From contig CAJBBX010000028.1 in assembly GCA_903951425.1 (NCBI GenBank), forward strand, positions 1-64,000: a stretch of 64,000 nt of DNA. Reading direction: 5' to 3'. Origin of the DNA: an uncultured Chthonomonas sp. (GTDB lineage: Bacteria > Armatimonadota > Chthonomonadetes > Chthonomonadales > CAJBBX01). Within the stretch, counting starts at the first letter, position 1, and every line of letters begins with the position of its first letter. The position numbers and the translations under genes were made by a program. Below, one piece after another: positions 8,836 through 13,600 of this stretch. The notes beneath the pieces are model-generated. The model worked only from the letters and a program-made list of their open reading frames with translations. It ran no database searches and had not been told where the DNA came from.

Positions 8836-8893
8836 GTAAGCGAGCGGCATGCCCTTGCGCGCCAAATGTCTACGCAATTGCCTGCAGGACAGG

Positions 8894-8923
8894 TTGACAT
8901 CTCGCCCCTGTTAGGTGTACAAA
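8894..8923 (+). promoter_or_regulatory. Sigma70-like promoter of imuB-dnaE2
   Basis: A perfect -35 TTGACA is at 8894-8899. It is followed after 18 bases by TACAAA (8918-8923), a 4 of 6 match to the -10 box. Transcription would start near 8930, about 39 bases before the imuB ATG. The -10 region lies inside the left arm of the inverted repeat listed separately. Confidence 0.6.
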
Positions 8924-8956
8924 GATGGGTGTATCCGGCACCGATGTACACGCTAA
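8911..8956. promoter_or_regulatory. Inverted-repeat operator candidate over the imuB promoter
   Basis: TTAGGTGTACA (8911-8921) is mirrored by TGTACACGCTAA (8945-8956), whose reverse complement is TTAGCGTGTACA. The arms agree except for one inserted base. They are separated by 23 bases, and each contains the palindrome TGTACA; the two palindromes are 29 bases apart. A further GGTGTA at 8928-8933 repeats the GGTGTA at 8914-8919 with a 14-base period. The left arm covers the -10 box, so a bound protein would block transcription. A LexA-type SOS repressor is the natural candidate, but I cannot match it to a known LexA consensus. Confidence 0.5.
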
Positions 8957-8968
8957 TGGGGTGGTCGC

Positions 8969-10387
8969 ATGTCTGTCGCTTGCTTCATCGTACCGCATAT
9001 GGGCGTCGTCGCTGCGTGCCGCCGCAGGGCGGATTTGGCCGGCTCGCCCCTGGCGTTGGTCGATGAAAAAGGGCGCGTCGTCGCGGTCTCGCCCGAGGCC
9101 GACCGGGCGGGGGTACACACGGGGCAGCCCGAGACGGCGGCGCGATCCCTCTGCCGCGACCTCGCCGTTGTCCCGTATGACCGCGAGGGCGCGGATGAGG
9201 CGGCCAGGGAGATGTGGGACATCCTGGCCGTGGAGACCTCCTATGTGGAGCCCTCCTCGCCGGAGGTCTGCTATGCCGAGATCGCCGGGCTGCAGGTGTT
9301 GGAGCGCTCCGAGGTGGCCGCGGCGGCCATCCGCAGGCAGTTGGGCGGCCCCGTGCACGTGGGCCTCGGGCGTACCCTGTTCGTGGCCCGCATGGCCGCC
9401 CGGCAGGCTCGCGATGGGGTGGTGGCGGTCCCGTCCGGCATGGAGGGCGCTTTCCTGGCTCCCATCCCCCTTGCCGATGTGGAAGAACTGGAAGGCAACC
9501 TGAAGGACGCCCTGGCGCGGCTGGGCGTGAAGACGCTGGGCGATGTGGCTGGCCTGGACCGGCAGGACCTGAACCGCCGATTCAAGGCCAACGGGGAGAA
9601 GTTGCGCGCCCTGGCGTTCGGCGGTCCCCGTGTGCCGGTTCGCCCCGTCTGGCCGCCCCGGTTCGTGGAGCGACGGGCCCATTTCGACGATCGGGAGGTG
9701 GAGGACATGCTCCTCATCGAGGAGGCCATGCGCCGATGCGCCGCGTCGGTCTCCGAGACGCTGCTGGCGGGGCACGAGTTCTGCCGGATGCTCACGCTCA
9801 GCGTGCGCTTTGCCGATAACACATGGCAGGCCCTGCCGGAGCGCCTGGCCCTGCCGCTGAACAGGCCCGAAGCCCTCTATCGCGGCGCGCTTCGGCTCTA
9901 CAAGCGGATGGAGCCCGGGCGGCCCATCACCGAAGTGCGCCTCCGGGCCGCGGACCTGGGCCCGGCGGGTGGCATCCAGCTGGCCTTGCTGGATGACAAC
10001 CAATCCCAGCGCGGCCTACCGCACGAGAGGGAGCGGCGCCTGCATAAGGCGCTGGAGACCATTGGGAAGCGGTTCGGCGCCGCCTGCGTGCGGCATGCGT
10101 GCGGCTTAGATACGGGCGGCCGGACGGACCTCTGGACCTACCCGCTGGGGCATCGCATGAACGTGCCGGTGGATGTGGTCACCAACGACGCCGGCGAGCC
10201 CGTCCGCTATCGCCTGCGTGAATGCTCCTGGGATATCACCTCCATACAGAACCGATGGTGCGAGGCGGAGTGGGACTGGGAGCGCATGCACGAGCGCACG
10301 ATCTACCGTGTGGAGACCTGGCCCGCCGGCCTGTGCGAGCTCTCCAAGCAGGACGGTTCCTGGCGCATCGCCGCCATTGCCGACTGA
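8969..10387 (+). CDS. imuB: ImuB-like catalytically inactive Y-family polymerase protein
   Basis: The 472-residue product has a Y-family polymerase scaffold. The catalytic carboxylates are missing: the first active-site segment reads FIVPHMGVVAACRRR where Pol IV has an Asp-x-Asp-type motif, and the second reads VEPSSPEVCYAEI where active enzymes have S-x-D-E. A helix-hairpin-helix region (LGVKTLGDVAGLDRQDL) is at about 188-205. The C-terminal segment from about residue 400, with WDWERMHERTIYRVE and GSWRIAAIAD, matches the region typical of ImuB. In known mutasomes ImuB brings the error-prone DnaE2 to the beta clamp. dnaE2 follows after 9 bases. No imuA is present, and I could not identify a clamp-binding QL-x-LF motif with confidence. 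Confidence 0.85.
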   Translation: MSVACFIVPHMGVVAACRRRADLAGSPLALVDEKGRVVAVSPEADRAGVHTGQPETAARSLCRDLAVVPYDREGADEAAREMWDILAVETSYVEPSSPEVCYAEIAGLQVLERSEVAAAAIRRQLGGPVHVGLGRTLFVARMAARQARDGVVAVPSGMEGAFLAPIPLADVEELEGNLKDALARLGVKTLGDVAGLDRQDLNRRFKANGEKLRALAFGGPRVPVRPVWPPRFVERRAHFDDREVEDMLLIEEAMRRCAASVSETLLAGHEFCRMLTLSVRFADNTWQALPERLALPLNRPEALYRGALRLYKRMEPGRPITEVRLRAADLGPAGGIQLALLDDNQSQRGLPHERERRLHKALETIGKRFGAACVRHACGLDTGGRTDLWTYPLGHRMNVPVDVVTNDAGEPVRYRLRECSWDITSIQNRWCEAEWDWERMHERTIYRVETWPAGLCELSKQDGSWRIAAIAD

Positions 10388-10396
10388 GGCGGGGCC

Positions 10397-13300
10397 ATGT
10401 TCGTCCATCTGCACACCCATAGCCCCTACAGCTTCCTAGACGGCGCCACGGAGGTCGAGCGCCTGGTCCGCCGCGCCGCCGAGCTGGGCATGCCCGCCCT
10501 GGCCCTCACCGACCACGACAACCTCTGCGGCATGGTCAAGTTCACCTCCGCCTGCCGCAACTACGGCGTTCGGCCCATTCTGGGCGCCGAGGTCACCATG
10601 GAGGACCAGAGCCACCTCACCCTCCTCGCGATGGACTCCACCGGCTACTCCAACCTCTGCTCCCTGCTGACCCGAACCCACGCCAACGGGGGGCGCCTGA
10701 ACCCGCTGTTGCCCTGGAACGCGCTGCCCGAGCGGGCGTCGGGCCTCGTCTGCCTCACCGGTTGCCGCAAGGGGCAGATACCCTCTCTGGTGCGCCGCCG
10801 CGAGCACGTCCAGGCCGCCGAGCGCGCCATGGAGCTACGCCGCATCTTCGGCCGGTCGGGGTTGGTCGTGGAGCTACAGGACGACATGACACCCGACAGC
10901 CGCCGCGTCTGCGCCGACCTGCAGGCCCTGGCGGGGCAACTCGGCGTGCGCGCCGTGGCCACTAACAACGTACACCACGCCAACCGCGACGGCTACGCCA
11001 CCTACGATGTCCTCAAGTGCATCCAGGCTTGCATCCCGGTCTCGGAGCCGCACCGGAACCGCCCGCTCAACGCCGAGCGCTACCTCAAGTCCGCGGCCGA
11101 GATGGAGGAGCTCTTCGGCTGGGCGCCGCAGGTTCTGGCCGACACCGCCTCCGTGGCCCTGGAGTGCGGCGACGTGCTGCCCTCGGCGTGCGACATCACG
11201 CCACGCTACCCCGTGCCCAACGGAGGCGACGACGGCTCCTACTTGCGCCACCTTACCTGCAAGGGCGCCGCCTACCGCTACGGCCCCCTGCCCGACGCCG
11301 TGCGGAGCCGCCTCGAGCACGAACTGGCGCTCATCATCGAAATGGGCTATGCCGGATACTTCCTCATGGTCTGGGACATCGTGCGCTGGGCGAGGCGGCA
11401 GGGCATCCGATGCACCGGCAGGGGCTCCGCCGCCGACTCCTGCGTGGCCTACTGCCTCTACCTGACGGATGTGGACGTCATCTCGCGCAACCTCCCGTTC
11501 GCCCGTTTCCTGGTGCCCGGGAAGACGCCGGACATCGACATCGACTTTCCCAGCGATAAGCGTGATGATGTCTTCCGGCATATCGCGGAGCTCTACGGCC
11601 AGGAGTGCGTGGGCATGGTCTGCACCTTCCACACCTTCTGGTCGAGGTCGGCCGTGCGCGATGTGGGCAAGGCGCTGGCCCTGCCTGCCGAGGCGCTGAA
11701 CTTCCTGGCCAAGCGCCTGCACCACAGCGTCCGGGCGGATCGCATCTCAGAGGCCTTCGACCGCTTCTCCGAACTGCGAGAGCACAAGGCCCTTCGCGAG
11801 CGTTTCGAGTTGCTCATGCGTCTCTGCAAGGGCATCGCCGGCTTCCCGCGGCATATCGGCACACACTCATCCGGCATCGTCATCAGCCGCATGCCGCTGG
11901 AGCGCATCGCGCCCCTGCAGCCCTCGGCGCGGGGCATCACGCGCATCTGGACGCTGGACAAGGACGACGCCGAGGATATCGGGGCCATTAAGTTCGACGT
12001 GCTATCCCTGGGCGCGCTGGCGGCGGTGGGCGACGCCGAGAGCGAGGCGCGGCTCCACGACCCCGGCTTCAGCTATGACCGCATCCCCTTCGACGACCGC
12101 GAGACCTACCGCATGCTCCAGGCCGGCGCGGCCGTGGGCACGTTCCAGTTCGAGAGCTCGGCCCAGATGTCGCTGGCCGTCACTCTCCATCCCCGCCATT
12201 TCGAGGACCTGGTGGCCGCCGTGGCCCTCATTCGCCCGGGGCCCATCCGCGGCAACGTGGTCCGCCGCTTCGTGGGATGCCGCAACGGATGGATGCGCAC
12301 CGATGTGCTACACCCGGCCCTGCTCAAGACGCTGGCCAAGACCTACGGCTGCATCGTCTTCCAGGAGCAGGTGAACGACGTGGTCGCCGCCATGACCGGT
12401 TGCTCGGACGCCGAGGCGGACAAGTTCCGCAAGAGCCTCACCAAGTATGACCGCACCGGCGCCATGGACGACGCCCGAACCACCTTCGTCACCCGGGCCA
12501 TGGAGCGCCACGCCGATCTGACCGACGATGCGGCGAACTCCATCTTCGACCAGATCGAGGGCTGGAGCGGCTACGGCTTCACGGAGGGGCACGCGGCCAG
12601 CTTCTCCGTCACCGGCTATCGCACGGCCTTCCTCTCCACGCACCACCCGGCCGAGTTCTTCTCCGGCATTATGAACCACCAGCCCATGGGCTACTACGCC
12701 AGCAACACGCTGGCATCCGAGGCGCGGCGCCGGGGCGTGCGCGTGCTACCCGTGGACATCAACATCAGCGACGACAAGTGCCGTGTGCCGGACCCGGCCA
12801 CCATCCGCCTGGGGCTACGCATTGTCGAAGGGCTGGCGGAGGAGGACATCGAGGCCATCCTGGCCGCGCGCGGGCAGGAGCCGTTCGTCTCGCTGCTGGA
12901 CTTCTGCACGCGGGTCGTGCTGCACCGCGACCGGCTGGAGAACCTGCTCCTCTGCGGCGCGTTCGACAGCCTGCACGAGGTGCGCCGAGGGCTCCTCTGG
13001 CGGCTGGACGAGACGCTCTCGCTGGCCTCGGTCCGGCGCATGGCGGTCGCGAACGCGCCCGGCACGCTGCCGCTGGAGCCGCCCGGCGCGTCGGAGACGC
13101 CCGTGGCATGGGACGTGCCGGACTTCAGTGTCTGGGATCGCTTCCTCTGGACCTGGCGCGTCACCGGCGTCTGCGCCGAGTGCCACGTGCTGGCCTACAT
13201 GCGCGACTGGCTGGCCACCCGAGGCGTCATGACGGTGCAGGAGGCCCTGGCGGTGCGGCCGGGTACCCGCGTCAATGTGGCCGGTATCAACGTGCGCCCA

Positions 13301-13600
13301 CACCGCCCGCCCACGCGCTCGGGCCGCACGGTGCTATTCACCCAGGTCGAGGATGAGACCGGCCTGCTCCAGGCGACCTGCGCCGGCGAGGCGCTGGATC
13401 CCTGCACCCCCATCTTCCTCACATCGCCCGTGGTCATCGTCCGGGGAGCCATGCAGAGCAAGGGCTCAGGCATGAGCATGAAGGTGGAGAAGGTGCGGAG
13501 CCTGGCCCTGCGGGACATGACGACCGCGGGAGCCACGCCCCAGCCGCCGCAGGCGATGGCTCCAGAACTGGAGAAGCTGCTGGTGCAGGTGAGCCGGTAG
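10397..13600 (+). CDS. dnaE2: Error-prone DNA polymerase III alpha subunit (DnaE2/ImuC)
   Basis: The 1067-residue product has the size of DnaE2 rather than the longer replicative DnaE. The PHP domain starts MFVHLHTHSPYSFLDG, and the palm motif PDIDIDFP places the catalytic aspartates at about D379, D381 and D383. Helix-hairpin-helix and OB-fold regions follow (RVNVAGINVRPHRPPTRSG, about 955-973, in the OB region). It acts in translesion synthesis with ImuB, and the gene order imuB-dnaE2 behind one promoter fits a damage-induced cassette. A G+C bias like its neighbours gives no sign of recent transfer. The gene converges with maf, ending 7 bases before the maf stop. Confidence 0.93.
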   Translation: MFVHLHTHSPYSFLDGATEVERLVRRAAELGMPALALTDHDNLCGMVKFTSACRNYGVRPILGAEVTMEDQSHLTLLAMDSTGYSNLCSLLTRTHANGGRLNPLLPWNALPERASGLVCLTGCRKGQIPSLVRRREHVQAAERAMELRRIFGRSGLVVELQDDMTPDSRRVCADLQALAGQLGVRAVATNNVHHANRDGYATYDVLKCIQACIPVSEPHRNRPLNAERYLKSAAEMEELFGWAPQVLADTASVALECGDVLPSACDITPRYPVPNGGDDGSYLRHLTCKGAAYRYGPLPDAVRSRLEHELALIIEMGYAGYFLMVWDIVRWARRQGIRCTGRGSAADSCVAYCLYLTDVDVISRNLPFARFLVPGKTPDIDIDFPSDKRDDVFRHIAELYGQECVGMVCTFHTFWSRSAVRDVGKALALPAEALNFLAKRLHHSVRADRISEAFDRFSELREHKALRERFELLMRLCKGIAGFPRHIGTHSSGIVISRMPLERIAPLQPSARGITRIWTLDKDDAEDIGAIKFDVLSLGALAAVGDAESEARLHDPGFSYDRIPFDDRETYRMLQAGAAVGTFQFESSAQMSLAVTLHPRHFEDLVAAVALIRPGPIRGNVVRRFVGCRNGWMRTDVLHPALLKTLAKTYGCIVFQEQVNDVVAAMTGCSDAEADKFRKSLTKYDRTGAMDDARTTFVTRAMERHADLTDDAANSIFDQIEGWSGYGFTEGHAASFSVTGYRTAFLSTHHPAEFFSGIMNHQPMGYYASNTLASEARRRGVRVLPVDINISDDKCRVPDPATIRLGLRIVEGLAEEDIEAILAARGQEPFVSLLDFCTRVVLHRDRLENLLLCGAFDSLHEVRRGLLWRLDETLSLASVRRMAVANAPGTLPLEPPGASETPVAWDVPDFSVWDRFLWTWRVTGVCAECHVLAYMRDWLATRGVMTVQEALAVRPGTRVNVAGINVRPHRPPTRSGRTVLFTQVEDETGLLQATCAGEALDPCTPIFLTSPVVIVRGAMQSKGSGMSMKVEKVRSLALRDMTTAGATPQPPQAMAPELEKLLVQVSR

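Follow-up and report, generated by a model that had tools for sequence, protein, structure and literature searches.

A putative SOS-controlled imuB-dnaE2 promoter and a candidate LexA box in Armatimonadota

Introduction

LexA boxes differ markedly between bacterial groups, and 17 types had been reported according to a 2021 paper (PMC8565304). Among the cyanobacteria, AGT-N4-11-ACT and AGWA-N6-TWCT have been described for Anabaena and AGTATATCTGCACT for Chroococcidiopsis (PMC13416735). Among open-licence papers, our search turned up none on LexA in Armatimonadota.

The locus described here is the upstream region of imuB and dnaE2 in an Armatimonadota genome. The box that we propose for it, AGTRKAC-N4-GTMYACT, shares with the cyanobacterial boxes the AGT...ACT ends, half-sites rich in A/T and GTAC, and a location upstream of SOS genes, but the distance between the ends is 18 bp here and 14 bp in the cyanobacterial box. 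The GAAC-N4-GTTC box of Firmicutes and Actinobacteria has the same AC-N4-GT inner geometry, whereas the half-site here is GTAGAC or GTGTAC and not GAAC. A 14-bp GGTGTA repeat at the locus superficially resembles the alphaproteobacterial GTTC-N7-GTTC direct repeat, but the box in relatives is palindromic. In its gene content the locus recalls the lexA-imuA-imuB-dnaE2 cassettes, with adjacent imuB and dnaE2 genes behind a putative LexA-controlled promoter; in contrast to those cassettes, imuB has no imuA beside it here and the lexA gene is on a different contig. Once the box and the genes that it controls are defined, the SOS regulon of Armatimonadota could be put to a direct test and the relationship between the AC-N4-GT and cyanobacterial types would be easier to trace; the box also points to a new candidate SOS gene.

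Results

The window, the whole 64-kb stretch of DNA that was analysed, belongs to a 6.08-Mb genome (G000), for which two congeners (G001 and G002) were available. The features of the imuB-dnaE2 region are as follows.

8857..8874, minus strand: O3, possible third half-site upstream of the -35, CGTAGAC-ATTT-GGCG (half-site 8868-8874)
8894..8899, plus strand: -35 element TTGACA, exact match, invariant in G000, G001 and G002
8914..8931, plus strand: O1, putative degenerate LexA box over the -10, GGTGTAC-AAAG-ATGGGTG, from conservation and promoter position
8918..8923, plus strand: probable -10 element TACAAA, 18-bp spacer, inside the left arm of the inverted repeat, from position and orthologous imuB promoters
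8928..8933, plus strand: second GGTGTA, 14 bp after the first, from sequence; CGTGTAC in G002
8935..8952, minus strand: O2, putative box on the opposite strand, CGTGTAC-ATCG-GTGCCGG, from its AC-N4-GT geometry
8969..10387, plus strand: imuB, Y-family polymerase-like mutasome protein (PF00817 and PF11799 over cut-offs)
10397..13600, plus strand: dnaE2, error-prone DNA polymerase III alpha (Pfam DNA_pol3_alpha and PHP)

dnaE2 begins 9 bp after imuB, and its best NCBIfam model is the error-prone DNA polymerase, with a score below the model cut-off. The original prediction placed the left arm of a long inverted repeat over the -10 box of a promoter with a perfect TTGACA. The TTGACA is exact; the -10, TACAAA, is poor, and a strict sigma-70 scan detected no promoter in the imuB-dnaE2 upstream region. 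The orthologous imuB promoters of G006, G009 and G011 read TTGACA-N17-TACATA. From the position of the -10 we infer a transcription start near 8930. Directly before the -35, the imuB upstream region of G002 (L007) carries a perfect palindrome with 10-bp arms, GGTTCTACGC-CAGTT-GCGTAGAACC, where G000 and G001 have ATGTCTACGCAATTGC.

The predicted near-perfect inverted repeat is real and its coordinates were verified: the left arm TTAGGTGTACA (8911-8921) and the right arm TGTACACGCTAA (8945-8956) are separated by 23 bases, and TTAGG-TGTACA pairs with TTAGCGTGTACA across a one-base bulge. Both arms contain TGTACA as described, and the GGTGTA direct repeat with its 14-base period was found at 8914 and 8928. 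TGTACA occurs merely 6 times across the 64 kb, and a TGTACA-N15-30-TGTACA pair occurs a single time in the whole 6.08-Mb genome, before imuB. The repeat is only mildly unusual: when the 108-bp region was shuffled 150 times with its dinucleotides preserved, its score was reached in 5 cases. The segment 8868-8951 is the sole place in the window where three GTAGAC, GTGTAC or GTATAC words fall within at most 100 bp; any such cluster appeared in 2 of 60 simulated 64-kb windows.

Within the genus the left arm is the well-conserved one, and 14 consecutive bases of O1 (GGTGTACAAAGATG) are invariant. The right arm is not conserved letter for letter, reading TGTGCACGCTAA in G001, where TGTACA is gone, and TGTCTACTCCAA in G002. 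The idea that the long TTAGnGTGTACA inverted repeat is itself the motif was therefore abandoned, because the TGTACA pair occurs only here and the right arm changes. The long palindrome looks like two adjacent sites rather than the box itself, and the mirrored words are most likely weak, doubled LexA sites, a type undescribed in this little-studied phylum. We also rejected the GTGTA direct repeat with its 14-bp period as a pair of LexA half-sites, since the same spacing in lexA follows from the distance between -35 and -10. A chance inverted repeat or a hairpin in the leader RNA would fit the modest shuffle statistics, but we consider both highly improbable. With the left arm ahead of the presumed transcription start, pairing between the arms in RNA is not expected, and a hairpin is unlikely by its geometry; the conservation and the link to lexA (see below) argue against chance.

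The distance between the centers of O1 and O2 is 21 bp, or two helical turns, in all three congeners despite the letter changes in the right arm. O3 is kept in G001 and altered to TTCTACGC in G002. A position weight matrix (PWM) trained with imuB promoters from outside the genus ranked O3 7th and both arms 13th to 15th of about 128,000 positions. With a stricter all-gene PWM (N4 columns flat), for which sites were picked with the box model in mind, O1 ranked 42nd of about 128,000 positions in the window and O2 fell outside the top 400; the same matrix gave 19.65 at lexA of this genome versus 6.59 at the site in the window. Because the individual sites in the window are weak, we make no claim that sequence alone would reveal them.

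These results bear on whether O1 could be the only LexA operator, the right arm being a chance match and the inverted repeat having no joint function. Such a reading, which we regard as possible but rather doubtful, fits the shuffle result, the loss of the right-arm TGTACA in G001 and the change of the right arm in G002, the poor score of O2 with the all-gene PWM and the apparent presence of one main box in most imuB promoters elsewhere. It fits less well with G002, whose right arm has changed to GTCTACT, in itself a good half-site, with the 21-bp spacing intact, or with the ranking of both arms by the imuB-trained PWM. In addition, O2 read on the minus strand retains AC-N4-GT and is identical at 12 of 16 bases to CGTAGAC-ATCC-GTTCC, the box of an HTH/zinc-ribbon gene in the same genome. 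We favor a role for both sites: the segment 8894-8968 is quite probably an SOS-controlled imuB-dnaE2 promoter, at which LexA dimers would occupy two degenerate sites of an Armatimonadota box, AGTRKAC-N4-GTMYACT.

As the original prediction implied, the motif also precedes lexA. Among all 31 genomes of the order that were searched for TTGACA-N13-17-GTGTAC, that of the window has exactly two matches in 6.08 Mb, at the imuB-dnaE2 and lexA promoters, while the reversed control gave zero matches in this genome. G001 has the same two matches and G002 has these two and one other; family-wide, 11 of 22 matches are at lexA or imuB. The lexA promoter is TTGACAGTAGACGCCTGTAAGTGTACACTTACACC, and 10 of the 11 exact matches to TTGACAGTAGAC in the family are located at lexA. 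GTGTAC of the O1 type is found at the equivalent promoter position in lexA and in imuB of G006, G009 and G011 (as AGTGTAC). O1 overlaps the core promoter, lying over the -10, and the lexA box abuts the -35.

Motif discovery was carried out gene by gene in promoters from outside the genus. It returned TAGTRKAC-N4-RTMYAC for imuB, AGTAGAC-N4-GT for lexA and GTAGAC-N4-GTATACT for the HTH/zinc-ribbon gene, which converge on AGTAGAC-N4-GTMTACT. The relaxed form GTRKAC-N4-RT is present in 20/30 lexA, 13/17 imuB and 12/15 HTH/zinc-ribbon promoters versus 3.0% of background chunks, in sets that are not fully independent because close relatives are included and that comprise stretches of 220 bp for the HTH/zinc-ribbon gene and 130 bp for the others. 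In named relatives, 27 of 34 lexA upstream regions contain GTAGAC or GTCTAC, versus 3.4% of the background. The position of AGTAGAC varies: it lies over the -35 in family f1 and after the -10 in family f3, and N4-GT is kept in both.

The same element thus stands before lexA and other SOS genes, namely lexA and imuB and, in two relatives, recA. The recA genes of G022 and G025 have TATAATGTAGAC-AGAA-GTTGCGT (GTAGAC-AGAA-GTTGCGT) right after TATAAT. The expectation of a motif before recA holds for these two relatives and not for the genus of the window, in which recA begins where an upstream reading frame ends and is not directly preceded by a box. Together, the shared lexA module and the boxes before lexA and imuB orthologues support the suggestion of a lineage-specific damage-response operator.

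Known LexA boxes are nearly absent from the 62 promoters (lexA, imuB and HTH/zinc-ribbon gene), in which nine published patterns gave 0 or 1 match each and two matches in all. GAAC-N4-GTTC was found in 0/30 lexA, 1/17 imuB and 0/15 HTH/zinc-ribbon promoters, CTGT-N8-ACAG and the GTTC-N7-GTTC direct repeat in 0/62 each, and the cyanobacterial AGWA-N6-TWCT and RGTAC-N3-D-GTWC in 1/62 and 0/62, respectively. This upholds the earlier remark that the motif does not fit the first three of these boxes. In genome-wide scans, neither the strict palindrome AGTRKAC-N4-GTMYAC nor, in the genus, AGTAGAC-N4-GT was enriched over controls; since the counts of bare boxes were equal to or below those of controls, boxes alone are unusable for listing a regulon. 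TTGACA-N0-28-GTAGAC was near background in most genomes and exposed the sites at recA and the HTH/zinc-ribbon gene.

TTGACA-GTGTAC might instead define a class of promoters with an unusual -10 (TACxxx) and no repressor site, with SOS control elsewhere or absent. In lexA and imuB alike, GTGTAC overlaps with the -10, and the conservation of the left arm is highest exactly there, so part of the GTGTAC conservation may be promoter constraint. We nevertheless consider a mere promoter class unlikely. Both matches in 6 Mb are at SOS genes, and at recA and the HTH/zinc-ribbon gene a comparable box is located after a good -10 element. Moreover, because AGTAGAC shifts between families while AC-N4-GT stays, a protein site fits better than a promoter element.

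The protein expected to bind such a site is present in this genome as one canonical LexA, which scores 197 bits with TIGR00498 (cut-off 111) and exceeds the curated Pfam cut-offs with 80 bits for PF01726 (DNA-binding domain) and 112 bits for PF00717 (S24 peptidase); the other two S24-family matches in the genome are weak. Its Ser-Lys dyad (S128/K165) and cleavage site (A92-G93) are invariant in 16 aligned sequences. By these features, it is a typical self-cleaving repressor. The recognition helix, SLRGVTVHLDAL, is likewise invariant in 16 aligned relatives, alongside the strongly conserved half-site. Those relatives of this LexA that carry names belong to Armatimonadota, and in G011, a genome of the same family, the lexA region matches a MAG labelled Chthonomonas calidirosea.

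The HTH/zinc-ribbon gene mentioned above (G000:C118:77926-78339, L362) has homologues (L348-L367) and is found in 20 of the 31 genomes of the order. It encodes a member of an uncharacterised family whose proteins combine a sigma-region-4-like HTH with a zinc ribbon (CxxC...CxxxC) at the C terminus. It is usually located behind a GTRKAC-N4-GT box and bears the best palindromes, which makes it a candidate new SOS gene. Its distribution and palindromes would also fit binding of the boxes by a regulator other than LexA, such as the HTH/zinc-ribbon protein itself. That is very unlikely in our view: the box stands before lexA also where the HTH/zinc-ribbon gene was not found (e.g., G007, G027 and G029), and the LexA of this clade combines an invariant recognition helix with the conserved half-site. 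Moreover, autoregulation of lexA is the rule in SOS systems.

Discussion

For imuB-dnaE2 and its proposed regulator LexA, the data show the promoter module shared with lexA, the conservation, the convergence of the motifs and the spacing of the sites. From the way LexA acts in other systems, we infer LexA binding and induction by DNA damage, and we also infer occupancy by two dimers. One LexA dimer would bind O1, over the -10, and another O2, just after the transcription start, on opposite strands. With centers 21 bp apart, both dimers would share one face of the DNA, and together they would block RNA polymerase. Upon DNA damage, RecA would stimulate LexA to cleave itself, and the imuB-dnaE2 promoter would be released.

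A broader proposal is that Armatimonadota have an operator of their own, AGTRKAC-N4-GTMYACT, matched by a clade-specific recognition helix (SLRGVTVHLDAL), that the imuB-dnaE2 site of this genus has evolved into a weak, opposed pair of boxes exactly two turns apart and that the regulon includes the HTH/zinc-ribbon protein. We give this combination about an even chance of being correct as a whole.

Several minor observations concern related sequences. Upstream of the HTH/zinc-ribbon gene in G000, G001 and G002 (L360-L362), a long-range repeat, GGATGTCTGTAC ... GTAGACATCC, flanks the promoter and is again a half-site pair around a -10. In lexA promoters of Fimbriimonadales and other named loci (L114, L115, L117, L121 and L128), GTAGAC and GTCTAC are spaced about 18-20 bp around the -10, more widely than in the order of the window. 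Promoters located 300-360 bp before metK in G023 and G026 (L327 and L329) have GTAGACAATTG directly after the -10 and a conserved leader. In G005, a repeated element (GGGCATGGG..GGGCTCCT...AGTAGACnnnAGTCnACC...GGTTCCA) occurs at several places in the one genome (L271, L272 and L273). Finally, one congener carries a perfect box, AGTAGACTTCAGTCTACT, upstream of a dnaA-like gene (L275, G002:C116).
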